Part shown: one piece after another, positions 43,560 through 62,144 of the stretch
Layout of the letters: each line of letters begins with the position of its first letter
How positions within the stretch are numbered: the first letter of the stretch is position 1
Position numbers and translations under genes: made by a program
Source: Candidatus Baldrarchaeum yapensis
GTDB taxonomy: Archaea > Asgardarchaeota > Baldrarchaeia > Baldrarchaeales > Baldrarchaeaceae
Length of the DNA: 64,000 bases
NCBI GenBank assembly: GCA_016840465.1
Contig: JAEOSH010000003.1
Coordinates: forward strand, 28,176-92,175
Reading direction: 5' to 3'
The notes under the pieces: model-generated
The model's input: the letters and a program-made list of their open reading frames with translations, nothing else
Database searches by the model: none
What the model was told of the DNA's origin: nothing

Positions 43560-43679
43560 CGCGGACACCCATTACGGATCAGCCGGGAATTACATACCCG
43601 GTGTCCTTTATTTGTTCTTTCCCAAGAAAAGAGGTATCCTCCAGTTATTCTGGTTATTACGTAAAAAATGTATTGGGGG

Positions 43680-44774
43680 TCAATGCGCATTATACGCGGT
43701 CAAAATCGCGTTAACAAAGTCTTCAGGTGAGGTGCCGCTAGTTCTTATTTTTTTACTCTCAAAGACTTCCACAAGTGCGGACTTTAGGAGGTTCTTATCT
43801 AAGCGTAGACCCTTTAATGAGTTTTCCAAATCGGCTATTGCATCTCGAGGCTCGAGCCAAAAGTCCCCGCTTATCAAAATATCCCTGATCACTTCATCCT
43901 CCATCTCGAAAGTCACCCTGATTAAACCACCAGGGGACTTATAGACCCCCTCAACGATGTAAGTATCGCCTGCCACCTTAACTTTCCTTGTAGCAAGATT
44001 CGGATGTCTCTCCTCGTGTATAAATAGCCACTCATGCGAAAGATACTGCTCTCTGAGTTCCCGTATGATTTCCTCCTCTCTTCTCGTCAATTCACCTCTT
44101 TCAAGCTTAACATTGAGGTACTTCTCAAAATTCTTCACTAACAAGTCAACAACTCTGCTTCTATCCGGTACGTACCCTAACTCTCTCCTCAATGAGGTGA
44201 CCCTTTCCTTCAGACTTTTTGCAAACTTGTCCCTGAACTTCTCACTGGGTACCCTGAGAACCTTAACCATTATATCGTAATTAAAGTCGAGAATTATGTT
44301 GCCGACGAAGACAAATGCTTTCTCTATTTCCCCACCGCCGTTTCCACTGATCTTCCTACCGTTAACCTCTATGTCATTAACGGGTCTAAAGTACGCGTCG
44401 ACCCCTAACTCCCTATACGTTTGCACAGGAGCCCTTAAGAAGTACTCAAATCTACCAACGGTGTCCGCGGGGACATCTGACCAGTCCTGGGGAATCACCA
44501 GTTGATAAAATATCTGATTTTCGTCTAAGTATACGGCCCCGCCGCCAATAACTCTCCTCACTATTGGTATTCCCATTTTCCTGCAAAATTCTATGTCTAC
44601 CTCCTTTGAAACCTCCTGAAAATACCCGCAGGAAACCAGAGGTGATGCCGGCCAGTCTATGAAAAGTGTCGGTGGAATGTCCCCCTCGCTTAGAGCAATC
44701 GCCGCTGCATGCCATATTACCTGCGTCAAAACGGGATCTATCGGCCCAAGAAAAACGTATCGCAGCTTCTTCAT
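43680..44774 (-). CDS. lplA: Lipoate-protein ligase (LplA with fused C-terminal accessory domain)
   Basis: Attaches lipoate or octanoate to a lipoyl carrier. The catalytic domain has RRVIGGGAVYLDENQIFYQL near residue 75, the lipoyl-AMP loop; NGRKISGNGGGEIEKAF; and a Lys in GRKISG as expected for activation. From about residue 250 the accessory domain follows with HPNLATRKVKV and ILISGDFWLEP. In many archaea these are two proteins (LplA and LplB); here they are one of 364 residues. Its ATG overlaps the stop of the lipoyl-protein gene, so enzyme and probable substrate are made together. hdrC and hdrB follow. Confidence 0.9.
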   Translation of the reverse strand: MKKLRYVFLGPIDPVLTQVIWHAAAIALSEGDIPPTLFIDWPASPLVSCGYFQEVSKEVDIEFCRKMGIPIVRRVIGGGAVYLDENQIFYQLVIPQDWSDVPADTVGRFEYFLRAPVQTYRELGVDAYFRPVNDIEVNGRKISGNGGGEIEKAFVFVGNIILDFNYDIMVKVLRVPSEKFRDKFAKSLKERVTSLRRELGYVPDRSRVVDLLVKNFEKYLNVKLERGELTRREEEIIRELREQYLSHEWLFIHEERHPNLATRKVKVAGDTYIVEGVYKSPGGLIRVTFEMEDEVIRDILISGDFWLEPRDAIADLENSLKGLRLDKNLLKSALVEVFESKKIRTSGTSPEDFVNAILTAYNAH

Positions 44775-45217: not shown

Positions 45218-45453
45218 TATGCCGACCTCCACAATTTCTGAAGAGAAGTCACCGCATTGAGAATATAAATGATGTACAGAGACTTGTTAGGGTGTATCAT
45301 CCCAATATGCTTTTTCCAAAATAAAACGCAAAGTTGCTGGAAAAATCGAAATTTTGTCCCTGTGGGTTTATTGTTTAAACCCTTTTAATTGACGTATGAT
45401 TTATATTGGGTACCTTTCGAATAGTTAGCGACTCGCGGAACGAGGGAAGACGG

Positions 45454-45777
45454 ATGAGCGACGCGCTAACTGTCATAATAGCGTTTGTGGTCTGCCTTCT
45501 GACTTCAGCGTTCCTTTACGCGCTCGGACGGAAATTGGCACCACGGGGCAAAGAGAATGACGAGAAAGTAACACCATACGCATGCGGAGAAGACTACCCG
45601 GTCGAATACATACAGTATTACATCCACTGGTTCTACTACGCGGTCTTCTTCACAATACTTGAGGTTGCAGCGATACTCATAGCGTTCTCGCTGTTCGCAC
45701 CAAGCGTGGCGCTCGTGGTGGTAATAATATACACGATTATGGCCCTAATTGCCGCGTTTATGGCACCGCGTGAGTAG
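45454..45777 (+). CDS. Nuo/Fpo-like subunit A
   Basis: A three-helix membrane subunit at the quinone-site region of complex I. The hallmark loop is YACGEDYPVEYIQYYIHWFYYAVFF, with the conserved Cys in ACGEDYP. The frame is open from 45406, but GAGGGA before the ATG at 45454 sets the start (107 residues). Group 4 hydrogenases generally lack this subunit, so finding it beside a hydrogenase-type catalytic pair matters. It heads a six-gene operon with B, C, D, H and I. About 235 bp of non-coding promoter region precede it. Confidence 0.92.
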   Translation: MSDALTVIIAFVVCLLTSAFLYALGRKLAPRGKENDEKVTPYACGEDYPVEYIQYYIHWFYYAVFFTILEVAAILIAFSLFAPSVALVVVIIYTIMALIAAFMAPRE

Positions 45778-45787
45778 GTGATGTGAT

Positions 45788-46225
45788 ATGGGAATACTAG
45801 ATCGTATGGTCAAGTGGGCGCGTATAAGATCACCCTGGATACTCCACTTCAACACGGGAGGATGCAACGCGTGTGACATAGAGGTACTAGCAGTATTAAC
45901 TCCAAGATTTGATGTTGAGAGGTTCGGAATACTCCTAAAGGGAAGCCCCAGACATGCTGATGTGCTCGTAGTAACAGGTCCCGTGACGAGACAAGTTGCT
46001 AAGCGGCTAAAAAGAATTTATTATCAAATGCCTGAGCCTAAATTCGTAATGGCAGTAGGTGCATGCGCAGTCAGCGGTGGGGTCTTCAGGGGGGCTTATA
46101 ACGTACATATGGGACTCGACCAAGTACTTCCGGTCGATGTATACGTTCCCGGATGCCCACCAAAGCCGGAGGCCATCATTGATGGTGTTGTTAAGTTGTT
46201 AAAGAAGTTGGAGGAGGGTGGTTAG
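45788..46225 (+). CDS. Small subunit of group 4 [NiFe] hydrogenase / NuoB-like
   Basis: Carries the single proximal [4Fe-4S] cluster. Ligand Cys are in GGCNACDIEV (CxxC near residue 26), GACAVSGG and GCPPKPEA. NuoB and FpoB have two adjacent Cys in the first motif; the CxxC pattern and the HFNTGGCN context are those of energy-converting hydrogenases (Ech, Mbh, Mbx). Length 145 is typical. GTGATGTGAT stands before the ATG. It is followed by the C subunit with two bases between. Confidence 0.92.
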   Translation: MGILDRMVKWARIRSPWILHFNTGGCNACDIEVLAVLTPRFDVERFGILLKGSPRHADVLVVTGPVTRQVAKRLKRIYYQMPEPKFVMAVGACAVSGGVFRGAYNVHMGLDQVLPVDVYVPGCPPKPEAIIDGVVKLLKKLEEGG

Positions 46226-46226
46226 T

Positions 46227-46724
46227 GTGAGCGAACTAAAAGCGGAACAGGAACTCGTCGAGGATGTAAAGAAACAGCTCGGTGACAAAATTGTGGACAC
46301 CAAGATCCAGAGGGCAAAGAGGGTGTATATAAGGGTAAAGGCTGGAGATCACCGTGACGTTATAAAGTACCTCAAGGAGAAATGGGACGCATATCACGTA
46401 TCGACAATCACTGGCGTTGACTTGGGCGAAAATATAGAACTTCTTTATCACCTGTTCGCCTATCGGGGAAATGTTACGGTCACCGTGCGAACCGAGGTTC
46501 CAAAGTCGGATCCCAAGATACAGACAATTGTTGACATAATTCCGGGCGCAACGCTCTATGAGAGAGAAGTTCATGACTTGCTGGGTGTGGTTTTTGAGGG
46601 ACATCCTGAGCTTGAACGTTTAATATTACCGGATGACTGGCCAGAGGGGGTATATCCCCTAAGAAAAGAATACAAACTCGAAGTTGAGGAAGTTGAAGAG
46701 GTTAAGGAGGAGGGTGAGGCATGA
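46227..46724 (+). CDS. Nuo/Fpo-like subunit C
   Basis: A soluble structural subunit next to the catalytic pair. The diagnostic segment is PGATLYEREVHDLLGVVFEGHPELERLILPDDWPEGVYPLR. The length of 165 residues is normal, with an acidic C-terminal tail. GGAGGGTGG precedes the GTG at 46227 by five bases, so I use it rather than the earlier GTG at 46218. Its stop overlaps the ATG of the large subunit. Confidence 0.92.
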   Translation: MSELKAEQELVEDVKKQLGDKIVDTKIQRAKRVYIRVKAGDHRDVIKYLKEKWDAYHVSTITGVDLGENIELLYHLFAYRGNVTVTVRTEVPKSDPKIQTIVDIIPGATLYEREVHDLLGVVFEGHPELERLILPDDWPEGVYPLRKEYKLEVEEVEEVKEEGEA

Positions 46725-47935
46725 GCGAGGAGAGGATGTTTAGAATTCCCGTTGGTCCTCAGCATCCCGCTCTTAAAGAACCGATAAACTTCACATTCAT
46801 AGTTGATGGAGAAAGGGTCGTGGATGTCAAGCCACGGATAGGATACAATCACCGCGGAATAGAGAAACTCATGGAATCGAAGACGTACATTCAAGGGCTT
46901 TATCTCATCGAGAGAATTTGCGGAATATGCTCGGCGGCGCATCAGGGATGTTACGCTCAGAACATAGAGGAGGCCGCAGGCATCGAGGCACCCCCACGTG
47001 GTGTATACCTCAGAACGCTAATCTGGGAGTTAGAAAGAATTCACAGCCATCTCCTGTGGGTAGGTGTCGCATACCACGAGATAGGGTTTGATACGCTATT
47101 CATGTATGTATGGCGTGACAGAGAGCGGGTTATGGACATATTGGAGATGATATCGGGTAACAGGGTCAACTACGCAATGAACACCATAGGTGGAGTTCGT
47201 AGGGATGTTACTCCCGAAATTGTAGACAATGCCCTAAAGGCCCTCGACTACTTGGAAGAGAGAACGAAGTACTACAAGAAGGTCACCGAAGAGGACGACA
47301 GCATCCTTGCAAGGACCGTCAACGTCGGAATACTGAAGACAGAAGATGCTAAGAGATTATGCGCCGTCGGCCCGACGGCAAGGGCATCAGGACTGAAGGT
47401 TGATGTGAGAAGAGACGACCCATACGGTGCTTACGACGAGTTGGACTTCGACGTCGTAGTTTATGACACCTGCGACCTTACCGCGAGAGTACTCGTACGT
47501 ATAGACGAGGTTCTCGAAAGTATAAAAATGTGCCGCCAGATTCTCCAGAACCTCCCATCTGGGCCCGTTAGAGTGAAATTCAAGAGAAAGGTTCCAGAAG
47601 GAGAGTCAATAAGCAAGGTGGAGGCCCCTCGTGGAGAGGACTTACACTATGTCAAGGCAAATGGCACTGAAAAACCGGAGAGGTACAAGGTGAGAGCACC
47701 TACACTTGCGAATATACCGTCGGTCTGCGAGATGCTAAAGGGAGGATACATTGCCGACATCCCAATAGTATTCGCTGGTATCGATCCCTGTATTGCGTGC
47801 ACCGACAGGATGTTGTTCATAGATGTGAATACTGAGCGAAAGTGGATGTGGACGGAAGAGGAGTTGAGGATGTACGCGCGTAAGTGGTATAAGAAACATC
47901 TTAAGGAAGTGGTGAGGGAAAGATGGAAGTGCTAG
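46721..47935 (+). CDS. Catalytic large subunit: group 4 [NiFe] hydrogenase / NuoD-like, with intact Ni ligands
   Basis: The large subunit keeps both nickel motifs: RICGICSAAH (Cys67 and Cys70) and GIDPCIACTDR (Cys357 and Cys360). NuoD and FpoD have lost these. The rest, from VGPQHPALKEP through GYNHRGIEKLMESKTYIQG and LERIHSHLLW, is common to both groups. A C-terminal extension of about 41 residues follows the second motif, starting MLFIDVNTE; such extensions are removed by a protease in HycE-like hydrogenases. Expected to reduce protons or oxidise H2 with ferredoxin. Overlaps subunit H downstream by 13 bases. HypB is encoded at 4.9 kb. Confidence 0.92.
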   Translation: MSEERMFRIPVGPQHPALKEPINFTFIVDGERVVDVKPRIGYNHRGIEKLMESKTYIQGLYLIERICGICSAAHQGCYAQNIEEAAGIEAPPRGVYLRTLIWELERIHSHLLWVGVAYHEIGFDTLFMYVWRDRERVMDILEMISGNRVNYAMNTIGGVRRDVTPEIVDNALKALDYLEERTKYYKKVTEEDDSILARTVNVGILKTEDAKRLCAVGPTARASGLKVDVRRDDPYGAYDELDFDVVVYDTCDLTARVLVRIDEVLESIKMCRQILQNLPSGPVRVKFKRKVPEGESISKVEAPRGEDLHYVKANGTEKPERYKVRAPTLANIPSVCEMLKGGYIADIPIVFAGIDPCIACTDRMLFIDVNTERKWMWTEEELRMYARKWYKKHLKEVVRERWKC

Positions 47936-48939
47936 AACTCATACTCCTTATATTGGCAACTGTGTTGTTCCCCGGTGTTGTGTTCTGCACGTATTACGCC
48001 CTATTTCTAGAGTGGGTTGATCGAAAGTTCTTTGCAAGGCTCCAGAACAGAGTGGGGCCTTGGATAACTGGGCCAAAAGGAATACTGCAGCCCATTGCGG
48101 ATATAATAAAGTTACTCGCAAAAGAGGACATAACTCCAAATGGGGTTGATAGAGCCGGTTTCGTCGGTGCACCTTTCTTCGCATTAACCTTAGCGCTGTT
48201 CTCATTGATGTTCGTGCCAATAGCATCAACAAGCGGAATACTCTCATTTAAAGGAGATCTGCTCATAGTGCTGTTCATATCCACGGTATTCGGCATCATA
48301 ATAATATTCGCCGGGTACGTCTCTGCAAGCAGATTCTCGATAGTCGGCACTGCAAGAGCGGGGCTCCAGTTCGTGGGGTACGAAATCCCGCTCTTTGTGT
48401 CAGCAATTATTCCCGCACTTATAGCCAGGTCTCTGACATTGAAGGAAATAGTGGAGTGGCAGATTGCACATTACCCACTGATACTATGCTTCCCTGCAAT
48501 GATAGCATTCGGAATCTTCATAGTATGTTCCCTTGCGAAACTCGAAAAACTGCCGTTTGACATACCCGAAGCAGAAACGGAGATAGTTGCAGGGTGGGCA
48601 ACAGAGTTCAGCGGAAAGAAGTTGGCCCTCTTTAGACTTTCAACGGACCTGAAAATGTTGCTTCTTGCCGGATTGGCGACTGCATTGTTCCTTGGTGGAC
48701 CTGCACCCTGGGGCTTCACACTTCCGGCAGATCTAAATCCGTACCTTGCGGCGCTCATATACTCGATATGGTTCGTGATAAAGACAATAATCGTTGTGCT
48801 TATAATGTCCACGTTGAAAGCGGCATTTGCAAGGTACAGGATAGATCAGGCACTTAGGGGCTTCTGGAGATATCTAACGCCCCTATCGCTTGCAATACTA
48901 ATACTTACGCCTATAGTCGCCTATCATTTCTACTGGTAG
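47923..48939 (+). CDS. Nuo/Fpo-like subunit H (membrane anchor)
   Basis: The membrane subunit linking the catalytic arm to the antiporter subunits, about eight helices. Signatures: ALFLEWVDRKFFARLQNRVGP near the start, GLQFVGYEIPLF, and LPFDIPEAETEIVAGWATEFSG, which has the acidic residues of the E-channel. Length 338 is normal. The ATG lies inside the end of the large-subunit gene, so translation is coupled. Confidence 0.95.
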   Translation: MEVLELILLILATVLFPGVVFCTYYALFLEWVDRKFFARLQNRVGPWITGPKGILQPIADIIKLLAKEDITPNGVDRAGFVGAPFFALTLALFSLMFVPIASTSGILSFKGDLLIVLFISTVFGIIIIFAGYVSASRFSIVGTARAGLQFVGYEIPLFVSAIIPALIARSLTLKEIVEWQIAHYPLILCFPAMIAFGIFIVCSLAKLEKLPFDIPEAETEIVAGWATEFSGKKLALFRLSTDLKMLLLAGLATALFLGGPAPWGFTLPADLNPYLAALIYSIWFVIKTIIVVLIMSTLKAAFARYRIDQALRGFWRYLTPLSLAILILTPIVAYHFYW

Positions 48940-49448: not shown

Positions 49449-50471
49449 GTGCTCCACATGTGTAAAAAGGAGAGTTTGTACAGGCTTGCAAAGGAAATAA
49501 AGGAATTCGTTGGAGTTTCTAGAAAGAGGCCAATCATAAGAGTGACTTCCGCATTAACCGATACCCTAGAATTTTCCGATGCAAAGATTATAAGAAGCTT
49601 CGGGGAGGATGCAGCAATACTCGACATAGGTAATGGAAGACTCCTCTTATTTGCGGCAGACGGAATATGGTATAAGTTGGTATCAGCGGACCCATTCTTT
49701 GCTGGATATTGCGCGGTATTGGTTAACGTGAATGATATTGTGTGTAAAGGCGGGGATCCTTTAGCGCTGGTCGATATACTCGGCGTTCCGAAGGAGTGCG
49801 ATATCGATAAAGTTGTGAGGGGAATAATACGGGGATGCAAGAAGTTTGGTGTTTCCTGCGTAGGAGGGCATTTGCACCCGGATCATCCGATCCCCGAAAT
49901 CTCCGCCGCAATCATAGGAGTTGCGGAATATAATAAGGTGATATTCAGCGATCTTGCAAGACCCGGTGACCTAATAATCATAGGGATAGATCTGGACGGG
50001 AAGTTTCATGAAAAGTTCAAATTGGCGTGGGACACAACATCGCACAAGTCTCCTAAGCAGATCAGAGATATGTTCCAAGCAATGTATATAATAGCGGACG
50101 AGGGACTAGCAACCGCAAGCAAGGATATAAGCAATCCTGGAGTCCTCGGATCTCTCGGGATGTTGCTCGAAGCAAGCCAAGTTGGCGGATACGTGTATCC
50201 TGATAAGATACCTATTCCGGAAAACGTGTCAATATATACATGGGTCAAGACGTACCCCGGATTTGGGGTTGTGCTCACATCACCCGAGGATCTTGCAAAT
50301 AAATGTGTGAAAATACTGGAAGACCATGGAATATCAGCATCCATAGTCGGAAAGGTGATCTCTGATCCTCTTCTTCTCCTAAAAAGCGATAATGAAATGG
50401 CTGAGGTCTTTAACTTCTCAAGAGACAAAATTTCGGGGAGACCTAACAGAGGGCAATTAAAACAAATTTAA
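49449..50471 (+). CDS. AIR synthase-related protein (PurM/HypE/SelD fold; methanogenesis-marker-2-like)
   Basis: An ATP-binding protein of the PurM superfamily. Recognised from FGEDAAILDI near residue 55, VNVNDIVCKGGDPLALVDIL near 95, VSCVGGHLHPD near 140, and DISNPGVLGSLGMLLEAS in the second domain. The order resembles COG2144 and methanogenesis marker 2 proteins. It is not HypE: the C-terminal Cys for carbamoyl transfer is absent, ending instead in KQI. Reaction unknown. The frame starts GTG 49449 or ATG 49458. It lies 142 bp after the hydrogenase-like operon, with a possible functional link, and is followed by tRNA-Arg. Confidence 0.8.
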   Translation: MLHMCKKESLYRLAKEIKEFVGVSRKRPIIRVTSALTDTLEFSDAKIIRSFGEDAAILDIGNGRLLLFAADGIWYKLVSADPFFAGYCAVLVNVNDIVCKGGDPLALVDILGVPKECDIDKVVRGIIRGCKKFGVSCVGGHLHPDHPIPEISAAIIGVAEYNKVIFSDLARPGDLIIIGIDLDGKFHEKFKLAWDTTSHKSPKQIRDMFQAMYIIADEGLATASKDISNPGVLGSLGMLLEASQVGGYVYPDKIPIPENVSIYTWVKTYPGFGVVLTSPEDLANKCVKILEDHGISASIVGKVISDPLLLLKSDNEMAEVFNFSRDKISGRPNRGQLKQI

Positions 50472-52005: not shown

Positions 52006-52944
52006 TTAAATTTTCACCCAGATTTCTTTAATCTTTTCGAGCAGAGGTTGCGTACTTATTGCGTGTAGATGTAAGCATAACTGGGTACGAGGATTTAATC
52101 CCAAAACTAGTCCTATTAACTGGCTGAGGTGGAGAACGGGTATTTGAAAATCTATCTTCCCACTTTTGTACAGATCTCTTTGGCAAATATCAAGCCTGTA
52201 CATACACGCAGGGCACCACACGACTATCATATCTGCACCGACTCTATGGATACTTTCTAACTTCCTTATGCATATATTTTCCGATAACTCGTAATGGACT
52301 CGTGACTGTATGCCGGATCCCCCGCAACACAAGTTTTTCTCCGAGTAATCCACGACCTCGGCCCCTAAATCGCTTAATAACTCGTCTACAAATCTTGGGT
52401 TCTTGTGGTCATCGAATTTCCTGAACATCAACTCGCGACGATAATGACATCCATAATGCACTGCAACTCTCAGCCCTTCTAGCGAGAATCTCATCCGACG
52501 CAGAATTTCATCCTTAAATGCATAAAACATCTCAGGTACATGGAAGATGTCAACATCTAAGTCGTTTACATCATCGGGAGTCCGACCAATTATCTCAGCT
52601 ATCCTCCGAGCCAGATCCTCGTTATTACTTAGTTCTCGAAGAGCATGATTAAACGCAGTGTAGCATGCGTTACAAACAACAAGTACTGCCTTGCAAGCGA
52701 GACTCTTTGCTAGGAGCATATTTCGGGCGCAGAGGGAAACCATGACTTCGGGTGGCGACATATTCCAAAAGAATGTGGGAAAGCCGCAACATGTCTGGTC
52801 ATCTGACATCAGGAAGGGTATGTCGAGAAACTTGAGCACAAAGTACGTGGCCACCTCTATCCCAGGATGGGCCTGCACGCAAGGCCGGAAGAGGAAGAAG
52901 GGCACCGTCTCTCTAATAATGCTGAAGTCCCTATCATTAGACAT
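52006..52944 (-). CDS. Heterodisulfide reductase subunit B homologue (second copy)
   Basis: A second HdrB with two CCG domains. Domain 1: a Cys in RPCVQAHPG, CCGFP and CNACYTAF. Domain 2: YGCHYRRE, CCGGSG and CPACMYRL. All cluster Cys are present. It differs clearly from the first copy at 42.1 kb, with an N-terminal segment before the first Cys and different loops, so it is not a recent duplicate. It overlaps hdrC2 by eight bases. Near the Fwd-like genes it may serve electron transfer or bifurcation with the HdrA-MvhD fusion at 56.9 kb. Confidence 0.9.
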   Translation of the reverse strand: MSNDRDFSIIRETVPFFLFRPCVQAHPGIEVATYFVLKFLDIPFLMSDDQTCCGFPTFFWNMSPPEVMVSLCARNMLLAKSLACKAVLVVCNACYTAFNHALRELSNNEDLARRIAEIIGRTPDDVNDLDVDIFHVPEMFYAFKDEILRRMRFSLEGLRVAVHYGCHYRRELMFRKFDDHKNPRFVDELLSDLGAEVVDYSEKNLCCGGSGIQSRVHYELSENICIRKLESIHRVGADMIVVWCPACMYRLDICQRDLYKSGKIDFQIPVLHLSQLIGLVLGLNPRTQLCLHLHAISTQPLLEKIKEIWVKI

Positions 52945-53470
52945 TTCTACTCACCTTTTTCATGTATTCTAAGGCTTCTGACTTCTCAAATATGCGCTTA
53001 ACGTCTCTAAGCGCATCTTCTGAAACAGACCTTGGTGGTATACCGACCTCCCTCTGGAGATTTATCAGATTATCTGTTAGCGGAACAGAAAGCCCCGTTT
53101 CCATGATGTTTTCCGCGAATTTTATTATCTTGCTCATCTTTAATAGCGTGTTTATGTCCTGTAAGAGCACGCCAGCGTATCTGAGATTTATTATGAACAA
53201 CGCCGGGTTTATCGACCGCGGGCACTTCATCGCGCATTCAAAACACAGCAGGCAGTCCCAAATGTTCTCACGTTCAAATATATCACCTAATGAGCATAAA
53301 AGGAAACGCCCGACGATCCTTCGGATATTAAAGTTGGAAAAGCGTGCCGCTGGGCAATCGCCGACGCACATCCCACACTGGTAGCAGGTTTCTATATTGC
53401 CCGCTCTTTTTCTCAAGTCCTCCTTTATTGCCCGTTCCACGGATTCGGGGATCGTCTGCGATCCTCTCAA
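52937..53470 (-). CDS. Heterodisulfide reductase subunit C homologue (second copy)
   Basis: Two [4Fe-4S] motifs: CYQCGMCVGDCP near residue 29 and CLLCFECAMKCP near 73, then a helical C-terminal region. The TTG start at 53470 follows AAGGTGTGAAG. It is the first gene of the hdrC2-hdrB2 pair and is divergent from fwdD; the 180-bp space between them should hold both promoters. Confidence 0.9.
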   Translation of the reverse strand: MRGSQTIPESVERAIKEDLRKRAGNIETCYQCGMCVGDCPAARFSNFNIRRIVGRFLLCSLGDIFERENIWDCLLCFECAMKCPRSINPALFIINLRYAGVLLQDINTLLKMSKIIKFAENIMETGLSVPLTDNLINLQREVGIPPRSVSEDALRDVKRIFEKSEALEYMKKVSRNV

Positions 53471-53650
53471 TACACTTCACACCTTAAGGGGGCGTCGTGA
53501 TATAGTTACATAACGCAATTTAAATAATATGGCATGATTGAAAGTATGCTTAGCGGAATATGAGGCGATTTGCGTGATTACTCTCGCATGTACAAAGTTT
53601 TTCGTAGGATCTCCAAGAATTTGTGAGAGAAGATTATAGGAGGTGTCCAT

Positions 53651-54046
53651 TTGTCAATTTTCAAATACTTAAAGCCAAAAATCACGTATAGGGTCATTAT
53701 AGCTAGAATGCGTCCGAAAGAGGAACGTTCCGAGTACGATAGACTCTCAAATGGATATATGGAAATTGCCGCAGTTGCATATTTTAATCCGAGTGATTAC
53801 GACTCCCTGATAGGTAAGGAGGGTGGTAATGTTAAGGTGAAGGGCAGGGGAGGGGAGGTAGTACTTAAACCGCTAAAGGACGAAAGAGTTCCCAAGAACA
53901 CAATAATCATACCGCCGGGACCTTGGGCTAATGCGTTGATCGATGAGAGTGGCCATGGCGGCATTCCTCATTTTAAGTCCTTAAATGTCGAAGTGATGGT
54001 TGTCAAAGAGCCCGTTACCAAGGTAGAAGAGATTTTAAAAAGGTGA
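53651..54046 (+). CDS. fwdD: Formylmethanofuran dehydrogenase subunit D-like (molybdopterin dinucleotide binding)
   Basis: A small double-psi beta-barrel protein that helps hold the molybdo- or tungstopterin next to FwdB. The NPSDYDSLIGKEGGNVKVKGRGGEV stretch and IIPPGPWANALI are the family marks; the latter contacts the dinucleotide cofactor. Length 131 is standard. GGAGGTG precedes the TTG start. The fwdA-like gene follows after four bases. Confidence 0.85.
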   Translation: MSIFKYLKPKITYRVIIARMRPKEERSEYDRLSNGYMEIAAVAYFNPSDYDSLIGKEGGNVKVKGRGGEVVLKPLKDERVPKNTIIIPPGPWANALIDESGHGGIPHFKSLNVEVMVVKEPVTKVEEILKR

Positions 54047-54050
54047 TGAT

Positions 54051-55601
54051 ATGTCATCTGGAGCGCCTGAAAAGCTTATTATAAAAGGCGGCGTGGTCGT
54101 GGATCCGATTAATGAAATTCGAGGAGATAAACTCGATATTTTCGTTTCTAATGGAAAGATTTGTGAAGAATTCGATGAAAAGAATGCAAAGATAATAGAT
54201 GCGGCTGGAAACATCGTTGTTGCCGGGGCCATCGACCCTCATGCTCATCTCATCACAACAGGATCATTTCTGAGATACTTGGTTCCTGTAGCCCGCAAAG
54301 CACCAACTTATGAAATAATAAGAGAGTATGTGAGGCTGGGATGGACGACGATATCGCTGGTCGGTCCCTCGATTCCCGAAGTACTGCATGTACACACGAT
54401 CTTACGTAATATTGGTTTCATGGATTACGCGATATTTCCCCGCATCGACAATGATCAGATGTTTCTTTCTCTTGTCAGAACGCTGGACATCGCCGGACTT
54501 GCGACCTATTTGAGCATCATCGCTAAGAACTTACAAACGCTCGGTTTTTACATGGTACCGCCTGGCATCCTAGAGGGACAGGTCGCAGGACAAGATATAA
54601 AATCCTTGAAAGAAAAAATCAGAGTGCTGGACATCTCTCCCCTCGAAGCAATTATGGCACTTTTCGATTCCATAAAGAGAATAGGGTCTTTTGTTCCGGT
54701 GCAAATAGAGGCGCCTGGACTGACAAATAGCCCCATCGAAGAATTAAAGGAGATAATTGACGTACTTGGTGATGCAAGTATATTTGTGCCTCATTTATCG
54801 TATCATCTTCTGGGAGAGGACATCAGCACTGAGGAATTGCTGAAGCTTTTCGAGGGTGGCAAAATCTTCGGGGACATCGGAGTGTGCGTAGATAGAAGTA
54901 TTTCGGTAGCGCCCATAAAAAGGGTAGATGGATACAAGAATATACGGTGGTTTGCATCTTATGCTTGTGAAATGGAATCGTTTTCCCTCTATGGTCTTTT
55001 GGACGAAGAGTTTGCAGAGAAGCAGTCTTATGAAATTCTCAAAAACGCCTTAATGCTAGCAATTAAGGGAGGTAGGAAGGATAATTTGTCAATTTCAGGA
55101 GATATTCCACTATGCTCAGAACCTAAAGACCTTGCGATATTTATGTGTTCAATTCTTAGTAAGGAGTGCAGAAAGGAGGTTATAGGTCGGCATGCCACAG
55201 ATGACCTGTCAGCATTACCGGATGTCAATCTTATAGACGTCATACAAATGACCAGGGCGTCTCCTGCTAAAGCTTTAGGAATCGTAGAGAAAAAGGGACA
55301 TTTAGGAATCGGCGCAGATGCAGATATCGTAATCTATGACTTTGACATAGAGAGGCAGGACCCGTCGAGAGACTGGAAGGCATTCATGAAAGCGCTCCTG
55401 AAGCCGAAATATGTCATAAAGAGTGGTCAAGTAGTAGTGGTGGACGGCGAAATTACGAGTTCCGCCAATTCTTCTCCCATAATTGGCCGGGCAAAAGATA
55501 TCGACCAAAAAGAGTTCGAAGAATTTATTAACAGAGTGAGGAGAACCACAGGCCTTTACTACTCTTGCGTCGTTGAGAATAGATACAGAAGTGTCATGTG
55601 A
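54051..55601 (+). CDS. FwdA-like amidohydrolase with degraded metal site
   Basis: A homologue of formylmethanofuran dehydrogenase subunit A, which in methanogens uses two zinc ions to condense formate and methanofuran. The entry motif IDPHAHL (His64, His66) and Asp351 in ISGDIP are kept, and HLSYHLLG (His248, His252) is partly kept. The carboxylated Lys, in a GIKVVNPGG context in FwdA, reads GFYMVPPG, giving Tyr167. The next metal His, in HLHCNNLG, reads VQIEAPGL. So the binuclear centre looks incomplete. Length 516, about 50 shorter than FwdA. It may be inactive, scaffold-like, or use another substrate. Co-transcribed with fwdD. Confidence 0.8.
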   Translation: MSSGAPEKLIIKGGVVVDPINEIRGDKLDIFVSNGKICEEFDEKNAKIIDAAGNIVVAGAIDPHAHLITTGSFLRYLVPVARKAPTYEIIREYVRLGWTTISLVGPSIPEVLHVHTILRNIGFMDYAIFPRIDNDQMFLSLVRTLDIAGLATYLSIIAKNLQTLGFYMVPPGILEGQVAGQDIKSLKEKIRVLDISPLEAIMALFDSIKRIGSFVPVQIEAPGLTNSPIEELKEIIDVLGDASIFVPHLSYHLLGEDISTEELLKLFEGGKIFGDIGVCVDRSISVAPIKRVDGYKNIRWFASYACEMESFSLYGLLDEEFAEKQSYEILKNALMLAIKGGRKDNLSISGDIPLCSEPKDLAIFMCSILSKECRKEVIGRHATDDLSALPDVNLIDVIQMTRASPAKALGIVEKKGHLGIGADADIVIYDFDIERQDPSRDWKAFMKALLKPKYVIKSGQVVVVDGEITSSANSSPIIGRAKDIDQKEFEEFINRVRRTTGLYYSCVVENRYRSVM

Positions 55602-56901
55602 GTTTTTTGAATTTCCCCCGCTCTATAAGTCTTCTTATTCCTATTTTCGATATCTCGTCCTCTAGACGCTTTAACCTCTGTTGTAACTCGTCTTTGACAT
55701 CTTCAGGTACACTTGGAACTTCTCGTAACTCTTCCGCTGGAATTCTCTCCTCAATTTCAATTTTCGCATACCGCTGATGCTTTGGTGTTTCACGATTGAT
55801 AGTTGCATCTATTATTGCTCTTTTCCTAGACCCTGCCCACAGAGATGGAACCTCCGGATCAATAATGTTCACCGATGTTATCTCGACTTTAATTATATTT
55901 TCCGGGCATGCTCTCTCACAAGACCCGCAGAATATGCATAGACTCTCATTAACGGCTATCTTGCCTTCCCTTTCTGGGTCCTTTGGAATATACCAGCAAT
56001 TTACGGGACATATGTTTATACAGGCCTTACAACCAAGCGGATCGCACTTCTCTATATGGAAAAGCTTTATCTTTCCCTCGAAGCGCTTTTTTACCTCAAT
56101 GGCGTTTCTGGGACAAGTATTGGTACACCATCCGCAGTAAATGCAGTTTTCCTCGTTTATAACCACGTCTCCCGTGATGCGTGGTATTTCTATTTCTCTT
56201 TCAACTGGTGTTATGCACTTCACCTCTATTGCCTCATCAGGACAAATCTCTGCACAGAGGCCACAAAAATCACATTTCTCCAAGTTCACACTTATTGAGG
56301 AGGCAAAAGTGAGATCTGAGGGATCCGGCTTTTTCCACTCAATTACTATTGCATCGCACAATTCTGCACAAATACCACAAAATGTGCACTTTTCTTCGTT
56401 TATTTTTATTTCACCTTCGATTTTTTCGGGCATCTTCTTATATCTTACCAGATCTTCCTTCTTTTTAAGTTGAATTCTGACCTCTATACACCTCGTTGGG
56501 CAAATAGTCTCGCAAATCCTACAAGGAATGCACTTCTCTTTATCAATTCTTATACTTCCTACAATCCTCGGATACTCTTTCAGTGTCTCGATTCTCTGAC
56601 CATTTATTTCGAAAATTATCGCATTGATAGGACAGATTTCGGCACAAAGACCGCAAAACTGACATTTATCTTGATCAAAGGTTATTTTCGCAAATTTTCC
56701 ATCCATTTTCCCTGTAGCTATCTGGGGTATCGGTCCAAGAGAAATAGCACCCGTTGGGCATACCTCTACACATAATCCACATCCGACACACGTGTCCGTA
56801 TTGTAAATTAGCCTTTTCTTATAATTACGCCCAATCCACGTAACTATCATTTCGTTCTCCGTGAAGTCCAATAATATTTGGGGAGAAAACTCATCCGGCA
56901 C
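55594..56901 (-). CDS. Polyferredoxin with eight [4Fe-4S] motifs (FwdF-like)
   Basis: An electron-wire protein. Eight cluster motifs can be counted, starting CVGCGLCVEVCP and CQFCGLCAEICP and ending CIFCGSCERACP; the seventh is irregular (CDPLGCKACINICP) and the fourth ends in CDA, lacking the usual Pro. FwdF of methanogens joins Fwd units to Hdr with similar arrays. The C-terminal 80 residues are a charged coil. A GTG start overlaps the end of hdrA by 11 bases with GGTGAT before it, so the two form one operon. It converges with the fwdA-like gene by eight bases. Confidence 0.9.
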   Translation of the reverse strand: MPDEFSPQILLDFTENEMIVTWIGRNYKKRLIYNTDTCVGCGLCVEVCPTGAISLGPIPQIATGKMDGKFAKITFDQDKCQFCGLCAEICPINAIIFEINGQRIETLKEYPRIVGSIRIDKEKCIPCRICETICPTRCIEVRIQLKKKEDLVRYKKMPEKIEGEIKINEEKCTFCGICAELCDAIVIEWKKPDPSDLTFASSISVNLEKCDFCGLCAEICPDEAIEVKCITPVEREIEIPRITGDVVINEENCIYCGWCTNTCPRNAIEVKKRFEGKIKLFHIEKCDPLGCKACINICPVNCWYIPKDPEREGKIAVNESLCIFCGSCERACPENIIKVEITSVNIIDPEVPSLWAGSRKRAIIDATINRETPKHQRYAKIEIEERIPAEELREVPSVPEDVKDELQQRLKRLEDEISKIGIRRLIERGKFKKLT

Positions 56902-59272
56902 TTTTCATCACCAACTCGGAACCTATCGGACCCAACTTCTTGAGTTCTTCAACAAACTCCCTGACTATGTTTGCGAATCTCTCTCCTTCGGATGCCGAAG
57001 TGCTTGCGATTTTCAATCTGCGTGGATTAATCCCCACATTCTCAAGATACTTTTTGAGCGCAGAAATTCGTCTCTCGGCCTTTGAAAAACCTGTCCTGTA
57101 ATGGCAATCCTGAGGATGACAACCAACCACAAGGACTCCATCAGCTCCCGCCTTAAACGCCTCTAATATCATGAGGGGACTGACCCTTGCTGTGCACATG
57201 ACCCTTATCGGTCTAATGTTGGTTGGGTATTGTATTTTTGTGGTTCCTGCGAAATCAGCAGCCGCATAACCACACCAATTGCATAAGAATGCAACTATGA
57301 GGGGGAATTCGCATTTGTTTTCCAATGTTGCATGTATTTGGGCAATTATCTGTTGATTTGTGAAGTAAGGCATATCTAACGCGCCTGTGGGACAAGCGGC
57401 AACACAGGCGCCACATCCCAAGCAGGCACTTGAGTTTATGATAACCCCTTTCTCTTTATCGAATGTCAAAGCCCCCCAATCGCAGGCCTCCTCACAAAGC
57501 CTGCATCGCTTACATAGATCTGGATTATACGTCGGGACGTAGGGATCCAATTCTATTTTTTCGTGTAGCACAAAGTTCGCTGCATCGAGTGCGGCAGATT
57601 TGGAGTGTGCAACCGTGTCCTGAATGTCCTTAGGACCTTGAATTGTACCCGCAATGTAAATTCCCTGTATCATGGTCTCTGAAGGGGCAAGCTTCGGATG
57701 CCGCTCGAGGAGAAACCCATCAGAGGATTGAGAAATTCCTAGCATTCGTGCCAAGTCCTCGGTATCAGAGGGAGGAACCAGTCCCACGGACAATACCACG
57801 AGATCAGCATTTATTTCCATGATTTCCCCAGTAAGCGTGTTCTCTGCTCTAACTATGAGATCATCGCCGTTTTCATTTGCGGTGACCGAACTCGCCCTAC
57901 CTCTTATTATCTTTATTCCGAAATCTCTCATTGCTTTCAGCAAGAACTCCTCATACCCCTTTCCATACGTTCGTATATCCTGGAAGAGTATGAACACCTC
58001 GGCATCAGGTATCCTTTCCTTAATGCAAATAGCCTCCTTTATGCTGGCCGTACAACAGATCCTAGAACAATAGGGGTTGCCTACGCTTTCGTCCCTACTC
58101 CCAACACACTGGATGAACACGATCCTTCTGGGTTCCTTTCCGTTCGATAACCTGACCACACGTCCGCGCGTTGGGCCACTGGGGCTGAGCAACCTTTCGA
58201 GTTCTAGTGATGTTATAACATCGGGATACCTTCCGTAGCCGTACTCGCTCTTAAGTCGGGCATCAAAGGTTTCATAACCCGTGGCCACAATAATTGCACC
58301 AACATGAATCCTTATCCTTTCTGGCGTTTGATTGAAATCTATTGCATCGCGTTCACACGCATCTTCACAGTTTCTACAACCTATGCAATGATCTGGGTCT
58401 ATCACCGCGAGCAGAGGGACTGCTTGCGGAAACGGTAGATATATTGCCTTTCTTGGCCTCAGTCCCATGTCAAACTCGTTAGGGACCTCCACAGGACATG
58501 TTTTTGAACAAATTTCTATGCATCCGACGCATTTCTCCTCATTTACGTAACGTGGTCGTTTCAGTATCTCTACCTCGAAGTCCCCCGGTCTTCCCTTAAT
58601 GCTTGTTACCTCCGATAACGTTAGGACTTTTATCATAGGATGCTCCGAAACCTCGCTCATGAGAGGGGCCAGTATGCAAATTGAGCAGTCAAGAGTCGGG
58701 AAAAGCTTGTCGAGCATAGCCATATGCCCGCCCAGCGTCGGTTGCTTTTCGACGAGATAAACCTCAATTCCGAGACTTGCAAGGGAGAGTGCAGCCGTTA
58801 TTCCAGCGACTCCTCCGCCTATTACTAGAACTCTTTTCTTCGCACGTGCGTATCTGCGCTGTATTGGGGTTAGAAGCCTTGCCTTTTCGATTCCCATCTT
58901 TATCAGAGCAATAGCCTTGTTTGTCGCGGCGGTTGGAGAATACATGTGAGGCCAAGAGCATTGTTCACGAATATTCACAAATTCTACCAGAAACGGATTC
59001 AAACCCGCCTCTTCTGCTGCTCTTCTAAAAAGTCTCTCATGAAGCCGCGGGCTGCATGCCGCTATTACAACTTTTGATAATTTTTCCTCTGCTATTTTCC
59101 TTTTCAACTCATTAAGCCCTTCCTTGCTACATAGGTACGTGTGATCCATCACGAAAACGTTGGGGGCCCTCGCTATTTCGTTTAGAACCCGCTTGATGTC
59201 TATTACTCCGGCAATGTTCGATCCGCAATGGCATATGAAAACTCCTATTTTGTCGCTGTCCATATACTTCAT
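56891..59272 (-). CDS. hdrA: HdrA-MvhD fusion: flavin-based electron bifurcating subunit
   Basis: The FAD subunit of heterodisulfide reductase. N-terminal domain: VFICHCGSNI. FAD loop: VLVIGGGVAGITAALSLASLGI near residue 149. Iron-sulfur motifs: CVGCIEICSKTCP, CIGCRNCEDACE, CKRCRLCEEACD, and CLGCGACVAACP. From about residue 655, FLCNWCGYAAADFAG, MCTARVSP and GCHPQDCHYRTG form an MvhD domain, normally separate, linking Hdr to a hydrogenase or formate dehydrogenase. Length 793, as in fused HdrA types. Likely receives or gives electrons to Fwd-like proteins and HdrBC pairs. First gene of an operon with the polyferredoxin. Confidence 0.93.
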   Translation of the reverse strand: MKYMDSDKIGVFICHCGSNIAGVIDIKRVLNEIARAPNVFVMDHTYLCSKEGLNELKRKIAEEKLSKVVIAACSPRLHERLFRRAAEEAGLNPFLVEFVNIREQCSWPHMYSPTAATNKAIALIKMGIEKARLLTPIQRRYARAKKRVLVIGGGVAGITAALSLASLGIEVYLVEKQPTLGGHMAMLDKLFPTLDCSICILAPLMSEVSEHPMIKVLTLSEVTSIKGRPGDFEVEILKRPRYVNEEKCVGCIEICSKTCPVEVPNEFDMGLRPRKAIYLPFPQAVPLLAVIDPDHCIGCRNCEDACERDAIDFNQTPERIRIHVGAIIVATGYETFDARLKSEYGYGRYPDVITSLELERLLSPSGPTRGRVVRLSNGKEPRRIVFIQCVGSRDESVGNPYCSRICCTASIKEAICIKERIPDAEVFILFQDIRTYGKGYEEFLLKAMRDFGIKIIRGRASSVTANENGDDLIVRAENTLTGEIMEINADLVVLSVGLVPPSDTEDLARMLGISQSSDGFLLERHPKLAPSETMIQGIYIAGTIQGPKDIQDTVAHSKSAALDAANFVLHEKIELDPYVPTYNPDLCKRCRLCEEACDWGALTFDKEKGVIINSSACLGCGACVAACPTGALDMPYFTNQQIIAQIHATLENKCEFPLIVAFLCNWCGYAAADFAGTTKIQYPTNIRPIRVMCTARVSPLMILEAFKAGADGVLVVGCHPQDCHYRTGFSKAERRISALKKYLENVGINPRRLKIASTSASEGERFANIVREFVEELKKLGPIGSELVMKSAG

Positions 59273-59379
59273 CTCTTGAAAATAGTGGATTGTGTGCCAC
59301 CTTGTTGAAAGTAAATAAATGGAACCATATACGTATTTCTGACACTGACCTCCGGTTCATATTCCAGAGGTGTAAGAGT

Positions 59380-59844
59380 TTGAAGCCGTCTCCTCTCGAG
59401 ATATATAAACTACTTCCGAAGACAAATTGCAAAAAATGTGGTTTGCCAAACTGTATGGCATTTGCCGTGAGATTACTGAGCGGTCAGGCAAAAATAGAGG
59501 ACTGCCCCGACCTCGTAGAGAGGGAGGAGTTCAGAGAGAATTATGAAAAACTTAAGGAGTTGCTGGGAGAAAGACCAGCAGCAGAAGTATCATTACCGAG
59601 AATAGATAATGAGGAGGCATGCAATGGATGTGGTATCTGTGTGGTGGTTTGCCCTGCGAATGCTAGGGCAGACCCGGAGGTTGGTAGCGGAAAGGGGGCA
59701 TCCCGAAAGGAAGGTCTCATTTTCGTGGTTGTTAATGGAAAAGTCAAGATAATGGATATAAGTAAGTGCAGGAGACAGGAAGATTTGACAACGTGTCGTG
59801 TGTGCGAGGAGTTCTGCCCAAATAATGTCATAAAAATAGGTTAA
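59380..59844 (+). CDS. Iron-sulfur protein with CODH/ACS-gamma-type cluster domain and ferredoxin motifs
   Basis: Residues 12-45 hold a four-Cys domain (Cys17, 20, 25, 42 in KTNCKKCGLPNC ... DCPDL), the kind found in corrinoid iron-sulfur and related proteins. A ferredoxin motif CNGCGICVVVCP follows near residue 80, then an irregular set CRRQEDLTTCRVCEEFCP near the end. Probably an electron carrier for FwdB, which follows after 22 bases. The frame is open from 59290, but GAGGTG seven bases before the TTG at 59380 sets the start (154 residues). Confidence 0.82.
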   Translation: MKPSPLEIYKLLPKTNCKKCGLPNCMAFAVRLLSGQAKIEDCPDLVEREEFRENYEKLKELLGERPAAEVSLPRIDNEEACNGCGICVVVCPANARADPEVGSGKGASRKEGLIFVVVNGKVKIMDISKCRRQEDLTTCRVCEEFCPNNVIKIG

Positions 59845-59866
59845 AACATAGGAGGTATGCAAAAAT

Positions 59867-61159
59867 ATGAGATCATTTCACAATGTCATATGTACGGGCT
59901 GTTCTCTCCTCTGTGATGACATACAGGTCACTGTCGAGGGCTCGCACATAAAAGAGATTTTAAACGCATGTTCAAAAGGATGCTCAAGGTTCGTTTCGGA
60001 TCCAAAAGAGGGCAGATTATTGTCTCCCTTAATAAAGAGGAATGGTCGAGCCGAAAAGGCAAGCCTCGAGGACGCCGTAAAAGAGACCGTTGAAATACTA
60101 AAGACTTCCGATAGACCTCTGCTTTATGGCTGGAGCAACTGCGTATCGGAAGCTCAAATACTGGGGATAAAAATAGCACGAAAAATCAGAGGAGCAATAG
60201 ACGCAACATCCAGCTTTTGCCAAGGCGTCGTATACCTCGCAGCGTGCGAGGCAAAGGGGTATCACACAGTATCCTTGGGCGAGGTATTTAACAGAGCGGA
60301 TCTACTCGTGTTTTGGGGATGTAACCCTGCTGATGCTCATCTCAGGCACTTCAGTAGGTATACTTTCTTTCCACGTGGTAGATACAGACAAACGGGGTTT
60401 GAAGAGCGAGATAGTATCCTTATCGACGTTAGGGAAAGCGGATCAGCAAAAATTGCAAGGACACCATTGATCATAGAGCCAGAAACTGATTACGAGTTAA
60501 TACAGACAATAAGGGCGATTATTAAGGGACACGAAATTCTACATGGAAAAGTCTCCGGTGTAGACTTTGAAAAAGTAAAATCCATTGCGGATAAAATGGT
60601 CAACTCCAGATTTTGTGTAATATTCTATGGGCTGGGCCTATCCGGAACGAAAGGTACTTATAGAAACGTCTCCGCCCTTCTCTCCCTCGTTGACGACATA
60701 AACAGGAGAGGAACCCGTTGCGCAGTAATTCCTATGGCGGGGCATTTTAACATGGTTGGATTTAACAGGGTGCTCCTCGAGTTGACCGGATACCCGTATG
60801 GTGTGGACTTTCATGACGGTAGCGCTTACTGGAACCCAGGTGAAACCACCGCTTTTGATCTATTGAAAAAGGAAGAAGTCGATGCTCTCGTGGTCGTAGG
60901 TGCGGATCCTGTCTCCCACTTTCCGCGGAAAATTGCAAAGTACATATCAGAAATTCCAACTATCTACATAGGGCCTCACGTGACGCCCACCTCAGCCGTA
61001 AGCAGAGTCTCTATACCGGCGACAATAGCCGGTATAGAACAGGAGGGGGTTGCGTATAGACTCGATGGTCTTCCGCTAAAACTTAAAAAGATAGCAGATC
61101 CGCCGGATGGCGTAATTCCCGACGTAGCCATACTTGAGGCGATCCTTAAGCGCCTATAG
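59867..61159 (+). CDS. fwdB: Formylmethanofuran dehydrogenase subunit B-like (tungsto/molybdopterin subunit)
   Basis: The pterin-binding subunit that reduces CO2 to formate in Fwd complexes. The [4Fe-4S] ligands are CTGCSLLCDDI (Cys9, 12, 16) and a Cys at 35 or 39. The metal-ligand Cys118 is kept in TSSFCQGVV, but the next residue, His119 in known FwdB (CHG), is Gln here. That His is believed to take part in proton transfer, so activity may differ. FWGCNPADAHLRH and VVGADPVSHFPRK follow the family. Length 430. It follows the iron-sulfur gene, with a radical SAM gene next. Confidence 0.88.
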   Translation: MRSFHNVICTGCSLLCDDIQVTVEGSHIKEILNACSKGCSRFVSDPKEGRLLSPLIKRNGRAEKASLEDAVKETVEILKTSDRPLLYGWSNCVSEAQILGIKIARKIRGAIDATSSFCQGVVYLAACEAKGYHTVSLGEVFNRADLLVFWGCNPADAHLRHFSRYTFFPRGRYRQTGFEERDSILIDVRESGSAKIARTPLIIEPETDYELIQTIRAIIKGHEILHGKVSGVDFEKVKSIADKMVNSRFCVIFYGLGLSGTKGTYRNVSALLSLVDDINRRGTRCAVIPMAGHFNMVGFNRVLLELTGYPYGVDFHDGSAYWNPGETTAFDLLKKEEVDALVVVGADPVSHFPRKIAKYISEIPTIYIGPHVTPTSAVSRVSIPATIAGIEQEGVAYRLDGLPLKLKKIADPPDGVIPDVAILEAILKRL

Positions 61160-61181: not shown

Positions 61182-62144
61182 ATGAAGCTAAATCCCCCAA
61201 TAAGTATTAAAGATGCTAAGAAGATTCTGTCTGCACCGGATCAGGAGTTAAAGGCTCTCATGGAACATGCGAGGAAAGTCGCGGAGGATATCCATGGGCC
61301 GAACATTACTTTCTATGTACCAGGTAATAGCTTCCCAGCAATTTCGATAACTGGAACGAAGTGCTGGCTGCTATGTAAGCATTGTGTTGGGCATTACTTA
61401 AAGGGAATGATACCAGCAACAACTCCAGACGAGTTTCGAGAACTCTGTGTAAGACTCTGGAAAAGGGGGGCAAAGGGCTGTCTCATAAGTGGTGGTTACA
61501 CACGCTTCGGTGCACTTCCAATAGAATCTTTCTTTGAGGCAATAAAGTATGTGAAGAAAAACACAAAATTGCTACTAAATGTCCATCCCGGGTTTTTATC
61601 ACGTAATTCAATAATGCGTTTGGTGCAATGCGGCATCGATGCGGCATCGATAGATGTTGTGGGAAGTGAAGAAACAACAAAACAAGTATATGGCATCAGT
61701 AAGGATCCTCAAAGCTATGATAAATTATTATGCGAATTTAAAACGGCAGGAGTACCAATATTAGCCCCACACGTCTGTATAGGATTACATTTTGGTAAGC
61801 TACTCGGGGAACTTCATGCTCTTTCAATAATAAGGAATCATGAACCATCGGTTCTCGTATTCATAATCTTTACACCGACTCGTGGAACTCCCATGGAGGC
61901 GTGCAGTCCTCCGAACATTAAGGATGTTATCAGGCTCATTGTAGCCGCACGTCTGATGATGCCAGGTGTTCCGATATCCCTAGGATGTATGAGACCTAAG
62001 GGAACGTATAGAAGGGTTCTAGACGAAGTGTGCATGAGGGCAGGCGTTAACAGAATAGTTATACCGAGTGGGGTTGCATTAGATGTGGCTCGCGATCTGG
62101 GCTATGAGGTGTTAAGTAAAGATTTATGTTGTGTTTTCGCATGA
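61182..62144 (+). CDS. Radical SAM protein of COG1856 type (LipS2-like candidate)
   Basis: A radical SAM enzyme with the cluster motif CWLLCKHC (CxxxCxxC) near residue 60 in the context ISITGTKCWLLCKHCVGHYL, then CLISGGYTRFG, NVHPGFL, SIDVVGSEE, and ISLGCMRPKGTYR. This order matches biotin-synthase-like proteins of COG1856, to which I believe the LipS2 lipoyl synthase of archaea belongs. A lipoate role fits the lipoyl protein and LplA at 44-45 kb but is not proven; a LipS1 partner is not in the window. It follows fwdB after 22 bases and overlaps the convergent ferredoxin by 43 bases. Confidence 0.8.
   Translation: MKLNPPISIKDAKKILSAPDQELKALMEHARKVAEDIHGPNITFYVPGNSFPAISITGTKCWLLCKHCVGHYLKGMIPATTPDEFRELCVRLWKRGAKGCLISGGYTRFGALPIESFFEAIKYVKKNTKLLLNVHPGFLSRNSIMRLVQCGIDAASIDVVGSEETTKQVYGISKDPQSYDKLLCEFKTAGVPILAPHVCIGLHFGKLLGELHALSIIRNHEPSVLVFIIFTPTRGTPMEACSPPNIKDVIRLIVAARLMMPGVPISLGCMRPKGTYRRVLDEVCMRAGVNRIVIPSGVALDVARDLGYEVLSKDLCCVFA

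Follow-up and report, generated by a model that had tools for sequence, protein, structure and literature searches.

A FwdB paralogue with an altered active site in an Asgard archaeon and its possible role in an Hdr-linked electron-transfer complex

Structures of formylmethanofuran dehydrogenase (FMD) revealed four His, one Asp and a carboxylysine as conserved residues of the FwdA site, and the residues surrounding the metal are common to FMD and FDH (PMC11656701). In the Elp-Hdr complex the electron-donor arm of Hdr contains ElpA, an FdhA homologue to which no molybdopterin is bound (PMC12350162). The locus described here combines FMD-like with Hdr-like genes. It lies in a stretch of 64,000 nucleotides from Candidatus Baldrarchaeum yapensis (the window), whose 3′ end is the end of contig C84 (92,175 bp); the genome comprises 2.27 Mb. 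The module and its 3′ neighbour consist of the following genes:

52006..52944, minus strand: hdrB-like subunit with two CCG domains, probable part of the module's Hdr unit
52937..53470, minus strand: hdrC-like iron-sulfur subunit, probable part of the module's Hdr unit
53651..54046, plus strand: fwdD2, FwdD-like pterin-dinucleotide-binding subunit (NF042908, PF01568; 2ki8, 5t5i_D)
54051..55601, plus strand: fwdA2, FwdA-like amidohydrolase paralogue with a degraded binuclear site (alignment, model)
55594..56901, minus strand: fwdF2, FwdF-like polyferredoxin (NF042909, 293 bits, below the cut-off of 375; many Fer4)
56891..59272, minus strand: hdrA2, electron-bifurcating HdrA2 with a fused FlpD/MvhD domain (NF040770, PF02662)
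59290..59844, plus strand: FeSG2, Fe-S protein of 184 aa, PF04060 domain and FwdG-like two-cluster ferredoxin (profile matches)
59867..61159, plus strand: fwdB2, FwdB paralogue (TIGR03129, 5t5i_B, residue alignment, AlphaFold model)
61182..62144, plus strand: LipS1-type lipoyl synthase (NF053742, 270 bits), 23 bp 3′ of fwdB2 and co-directional with it

The fwdB2 reading frame is intact and full-length (430 aa). Its product matched TIGR03129 over residues 6-430 with 480 bits (cut-off 328) and 5t5i_B with an E value of 1.6e-113. The AlphaFold model (pLDDT 86), which we used for fold only and not for cofactor binding, had 5t5m_B as its best PDB match (TM 0.94) and also matched chain 8rvy_D of the Elp-Hdr complex. 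The active-site stretch, D-A-T-S-S-F-C118-Q119-G, could be aligned unambiguously: the CHG of M. wolfei FwdB is CQG in the window protein, with the W/Mo ligand position Cys118 present (codon TGC, 60218-60220) and the second-sphere His119 replaced by Gln (codon CAA, 60221-60223), as the first-pass annotation had stated. That annotation missed a second change. The M-R288-G-H290 motif of M. wolfei FwdB reads M-A-G-H, so that His290 is retained and the second-sphere Arg288 is replaced by Ala (A291 in window numbering; codon GCG, 60737-60739). All four N-terminal [4Fe-4S] cysteines (C9, C12, C16, C35) are in place.

We defined as near-invariant the 49 columns conserved in at least 98% of 110 canonical FwdB proteins. 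The window protein retains 42 of them and differs in seven (E105R, H119Q, T257S, L276I, R288A, V293M, M396L). This count, together with the conservation of the metal site between FMD and FDH, indicates a pocket that is largely retained and has lost two second-sphere residues. Judged from the alignment, the losses of His119 and Arg288 stand out against the otherwise conserved pocket more than chance would explain. W/Mo-bis-PGD is probably still bound by the protein, with Cys118 as the ligand, and this inherited cofactor would serve as a relay or have a structural role. A sequencing error at 119 and 288 is unlikely, because R288A requires two base changes and the His to Gln change recurs independently in other genomes. 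The first-pass annotation had assigned His119 to proton transfer; this is one of several proposals, and the equivalent FDH residue is a possible gate (2024 FMD review, PMC11656701).

A separate, complete canonical fwd set on contig C56 identifies the window gene as a paralogue. It comprises fwdF, fwdG, fwdD, fwdB and hdrA, then fwdA and fwdC, and adjoins cdh, ftr and mtd-like genes; several of these names were assigned by us from the sequence, and the identity of cdhC was confirmed separately. The canonical fwdB (648 bits) has CHG and MRGH intact, and the canonical FwdA (860 bits) has all four His, the carboxylysine and the Asp. FwdA2 of the window retains the HxH pair and the Asp; its carboxylysine is replaced by Tyr, the third His position is lost and the fourth is changed, which bears out the earlier remark that the FwdA-like neighbour is altered. 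The FwdA2 model matched 5t5i_A/5t61_G best (TM about 0.8). Elsewhere, metal ligands or the Asp are lost, or the gene is absent, in most lineages, and the Loki FwdA2 has Asp replaced by Asn. A mixed state was seen in a Borrarchaeum-type module (L044:2597-4321), where FwdA2 (583 bits, TIGR03121) has its binuclear site complete and stands beside an Arg288-less FwdB2. No FwdC was found at the window module: the only full FwdC of the genome belongs to the canonical set on C56, and a partial match on contig C25 (96 bits) was below the cut-off. The window module also contains no Ftr/FhcD partner.

HdrABC, FwdF and FwdB/D genes lie together within 52006-61159 of the window, which as far as genes alone can tell is the set of the Fdh-Hdr-Fmd type, and the same set occurs in other families. 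The hdrA2 product scored 1106 bits with NF040770 (cut-off 1100), the fwdD2 product 67 bits with NF042908, below the cut-off of 175. FeSG2 ends 23 bp before the start of fwdB2. The cluster around fwdB2 is conserved across many families, and HdrB/HdrC genes also adjoin the module at loci L056, L215, L218-L220 and L294-L297. We considered a link of fwdB2 to lipoate and rejected it: LipS1 adjoins fwdB2 in the window genome only, the other module loci lack it, and it is probably not part of the FwdB2 complex.

Some neighbouring genes deserve mention. A lipoate-protein ligase gene (43680-44774) lies 15 kb from LipS1, which places archaeal lipoate metabolism near the Hdr cluster. A second HdrB-like/HdrC-like gene pair (42108-43568) resembles the pair at 52006-53470. 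A membrane hydrogenase or a Nuo-like complex could be encoded by Nuo-like genes at 45406-48939 and 49449-50471, whose Pfam types are chain 3, 20 kDa, 30 kDa, 49 kDa and NADH dehydrogenase; an AIRS-family gene comes next.

FeSG2 served as the marker of the module. Its profile matched the structures of the CFeSP gamma subunit (2h9a, 4djd_C) at positions 4-50 and FwdG (5t5i_G) at positions 73-129, and the C-terminal half of the window protein is 35% identical to the canonical FwdG of its own genome. By these matches FeSG2 is a FwdG preceded by a [4Fe-4S] domain of the CdhE/AcsC type. Separation from CdhE was clean (full-length matches of at least 148 bits, CdhE matches of at most 91 bits). By our count in the profile survey, FeSG2 occurs in 103 of 228 Asgard genomes; full-length matches were obtained in 38 of 41 Methanotrichaceae genomes. 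In the phylum that contains the Bathyarchaeota, 6 of 300 genomes had matches, and Hecatellales and Archaeoglobaceae supplied more cases.

The residues of FwdB were recorded by alignment in two sets: 95 proteins encoded directly downstream of FeSG2 (Asgard, Methanotrichaceae and a few Thermoproteota) and the others, a canonical set that was gathered by similarity to the surveyed proteins and is almost wholly archaeal and not exhaustive. The combination Cys118-His119-Arg288 was found in none of the 95 FeSG2-linked proteins (FwdB2), whereas all 110 complete FwdB elsewhere had it. The exceptions among FwdB not adjoining FeSG2 were a module copy at a contig end (L009) and split Methanocaldococcus genes; one module member (L195) has Arg in column 288 but is poorly aligned there. 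The four [4Fe-4S] cysteines are kept in 95/95, including the 38 proteins that have lost Cys118. Among the 57 that retain it, residue 119 follows as Gln in 29 and as His in 19, the rest having Leu, Arg or Glu, and residue 288 is Ala, Ile, Gly, Thr, Val or others. Gln119 always occurs without Arg288.

The survey of CHG versus CQG that the first-pass annotation had called for thus found no Gln119 in ordinary FwdB, so that the finding which that annotation had named as refuting its view, a common Gln119 in proven formylmethanofuran dehydrogenases, did not turn up. The CQG motif is real, but it is not unique to the window protein and Cys118-His119 persists in part of the family; the alignments make loss of Arg288 the defining change of the FwdB2 family, of which the His119 change is only a part. 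On the evidence of the surveyed members, FeSG2/FwdB2 is an archaeal family that is widespread but unrecognised, and none of its members has an intact CO2-reducing site. Our literature search, in which subscription journals were thinly covered, found no paper describing it. The split Methanocaldococcus FwdB (L112:7983-9290, L116:4031-5338) consists of two reading frames separated by a stop at residue 118, as expected for selenocysteine at this position. In the Methanotrichaceae loci L286-L293 and L298-L301, FeSG2 is followed, where read, by FwdB2 and mostly by FwdD too. FwdB2 of this family is often CQG with Val at 288, and Cys118 is lost in L272, L276, L286 and L288; annotated Methanothrix fwd copies may include non-canonical FwdB2.

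In a careful tree the canonical FwdB lay on one side of a branch with 100/99 support and the paralogous FwdB on the other, and a larger quick tree kept this split (support 98). Whether the paralogues are a single clade would depend on the position of the root in these unrooted trees. That CQG arose only once was rejected: supported branches of the careful tree require the window lineage and Lokiarchaeia to have acquired it independently, and the larger tree adds Methanotrichaceae, which gives at least three origins of Cys-Gln. Pairwise dN/dS among relatives of FwdB2 was 0.06-0.33, pairs without Cys118 included; the window gene has no near relative in the set. Such values denote purifying selection, and the relatives are therefore not dying genes.

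To our knowledge, neither the way in which low-potential electrons reach archaeal CODH/ACS nor the re-reduction of its corrinoid protein is settled. Where HdrA2 accompanies FeSG2/FwdB2, CooC and cdh genes are frequent neighbours. The genomes of family f4, which in the careful tree groups with FwdB of named Thorarchaeota, carry CooC and cdhA-C-D-E after FeSG2-FwdB2, all on one strand; CooC matched 3kje with an E value of 2e-38. At L226 fwdB2 shares 4 bp with cooC, and HdrA2, FwdF2 and FwdD2 lie on its other side. Similar neighbourhoods were found in f10, Culexmicrobium and Hecatellales. Altogether, cdh genes or CooC were near 26 of 101 representative FeSG2 loci; 22 of these had FwdB, and 21 of the 22 also HdrA. 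Among the 228 Asgard genomes, 91 had both FeSG2 and cdhC, 12 FeSG2 alone, 16 cdhC alone and 109 neither, counts that are confounded by phylogeny and MAG completeness. In the window genome, module and cdh are apart: the cdh genes are on another contig with the canonical fwd set. Neither HdrA nor directly adjacent cdh genes were found in the Lokiarchaeal and Methanotrichaceae modules examined. We did not accept the proximity of cdh in several Methanothrix genomes (about 10 kb) as evidence, the intervening genes being unrelated and family synteny a possible explanation.

In Hydrothermarchaeota and other archaea a FeSG2-like gene, encoding a CFeSP-type Fe-S domain and a FwdG-like ferredoxin, lies between cdhD and cdhE with no FwdB nearby (L266:4769-5239, L267:6107-6568, L268:3559-4038, L269:329-793). 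Its product is possibly an extra CODH/ACS subunit.

We propose that a second complex derived from Fwd, with FwdB2 as its B subunit and a predicted link to Hdr, transfers electrons, is no longer a formylmethanofuran dehydrogenase and probably serves CODH/ACS, a reading to which we give an even chance of being right. The complex would consist of FeSG2-FwdB2-FwdD2-FwdF2 with HdrA2/HdrB/HdrC and, in the window organism, a degraded FwdA2. HdrA2 would bifurcate electrons, and those of low potential may reach the FwdB2 cluster through FwdF2 and the FwdG half of FeSG2, as through FwdF/FwdG in Fwd. The CFeSP-type domain of FeSG2 could then be the exit or entry port to CODH/ACS, where the electrons might drive CO2/CO conversion or reduce the corrinoid protein CdhE again; flow in the opposite direction, during acetyl-CoA oxidation, would be equally possible. 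Read in the simplest way, the Fwd scaffold would be retained as an electron-transfer unit on a bifurcating Hdr, with FeSG2 as the connector to CODH/ACS; in lineages without Cys118 the W/Mo ligand is gone.

Electron transfer is favoured because the Fe-S wiring is invariant while the CO2-reducing and amidohydrolase sites vary or vanish. The proposal is supported by the residue survey (the Cys118-His119-Arg288 contrast, the invariant cluster cysteines, the repeated loss of Cys118), by the branch separating canonical from paralogous FwdB, the dN/dS values and the FwdA2 losses, and by the cdh/CooC neighbours, operons of the L226 type, the L266-L269 genes and the co-occurrence of FeSG2 with cdhC. 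The Elp-Hdr precedent and the fold match to 8rvy_D also speak for it. It is weakened by the position of the window module away from cdh, by the Lokiarchaeal and Methanotrichaceae modules without HdrA or directly adjacent cdh, and by the 42 of 49 columns and the FwdD partner that the window protein keeps, which is more than a pure scaffold needs.

This last observation suits the idea of changed chemistry put forward in the first-pass annotation: the FwdB2 proteins with Cys118, that of the window included, would be W/Mo oxidoreductases for a substrate other than CO2/formate, in which Gln or His at 119, together with a small side chain at 288, would open up space or do away with the Arg that binds carboxylate. 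His290 is kept as well, Cys118 is present in most relatives (57/95), and the repeated origin of Gln119, always without Arg288, resembles a recurrent solution rather than noise. However, residues 119 and 288 vary within the Cys118-keeping set, Cys118-less proteins fill the equivalent operon slot elsewhere, and the loci have no substrate-specific neighbour in common. We regard this alternative as possible but rather doubtful. The loss of Cys118 in 38 relatives, all with the [4Fe-4S] cysteines, points to electron transfer or a scaffold instead of a new substrate; the earlier interpretation is thus partly supported, the evidence favouring conversion to electron transfer.

The remaining explanations are less probable. 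An isoenzyme of formylmethanofuran dehydrogenase that tolerates Gln119 and Ala288 would agree with the overall resemblance to FwdB, which is high (480 bits with TIGR03129, exceeding its cut-off), and CO2 reduction without the Arg is possible in principle; it is improbable in view of the invariance of His119 and Arg288 in 110/110 ordinary FwdB, the absence of the carboxylysine and one His ligand from the window FwdA2, the locus without FwdC and the existence of a complete canonical set. Equally improbable is an inert FwdB2 scaffold with FwdA2 hydrolysing or transferring formyl groups, as in the formyltransferase/hydrolase complex of methylotrophs, although FhcB is a FwdB homologue without metallopterin (PMC11656701, PMC10100899) and Borrarchaeum-type modules such as L044 have a complete FwdA site: at least two metal-ligand positions are missing from FwdA2 of the window, the Loki FwdA2 has its Asp replaced, most modules lack FwdA2, and that of the window lacks FhcD/Ftr and FwdC. 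Ordinary decay of a redundant copy could account for several changed near-invariant residues and a degraded FwdA2, but the intact reading frames, the cluster conserved across many families, the invariant cluster cysteines and the dN/dS of 0.06-0.33 in relatives (a test in which the window gene had no near relative) make it very improbable. The earlier statement that the loss was not random agrees with the purifying selection in relatives, the conserved operon and the parallel alteration of FwdA.

A wider form of the proposed electron-transfer role, which we offer tentatively, is that FeSG2-FwdB2 is an ancient archaeal complex in which Fwd was re-used as an HdrA-driven bifurcating reductase for CODH/ACS, its W site turning from catalyst to relay. 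If true, Asgard archaea would couple bifurcation directly to acetyl-CoA synthase, for CO2 to CO conversion or corrinoid reactivation, and aceticlastic Methanothrix would have a reduced version. The electron supply of CODH/ACS would become testable through a dedicated, Hdr-linked module whose genes lie with cdhA-E, and as Methanothrix is in culture the family can be tested outside metagenomes. A count of fwdB genes taken as evidence of CO2 reduction can mislead in Asgard and Methanothrix genomes, because FwdB2 genes score as FwdB (one copy from Methanothrix and that of the window passed the TIGR03129 cut-off) although none has an intact CO2-reducing site.

Compared with W/Mo formylmethanofuran dehydrogenase (Fwd/Fmd; 5T5I, 7BKB, 8RJA), the module shares the FwdB fold (TM 0.94) and most of the pocket, FwdD, FwdF, FwdG-like and FwdA-like subunits and, at the level of genes, the HdrABC partner of the Fdh-Hdr-Fmd supercomplex. 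It differs in lacking His119 and Arg288, in its degraded FwdA site, in having no FwdC at the locus and in the fusion of FwdG to a CFeSP-type domain. Fhc (6S6Y) also has a FwdB-derived non-redox subunit, FhcB, but it operates together with FhcD and an active FhcA and has no Hdr link, whereas FwdB2 keeps all four cluster cysteines, FwdA2 is degraded and the module has no Ftr. Elp-Hdr of Methanothermobacter marburgensis (PMC12350162; 8rvy) resembles the module in being Hdr-linked, with an FDH-like subunit without formate chemistry in the electron-transfer arm; unlike FwdB2, ElpA derives from FdhA and lacks the whole molybdopterin-binding region, and we found nothing in the module that corresponds to ElpB (F420). 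The HdrA-linked, Cys118-less 'Molybdop' clade of ANME-2/3 and Methanosarcinaceae (PMC12054007) likewise places a MopB protein, proposed to be non-catalytic and structural, in an hdrA cluster. That clade, however, is near FdhG/FhcB, clusters with FdhB and MvhD, always lacks Cys118 and is not described as linked to FeSG2 or CODH/ACS.
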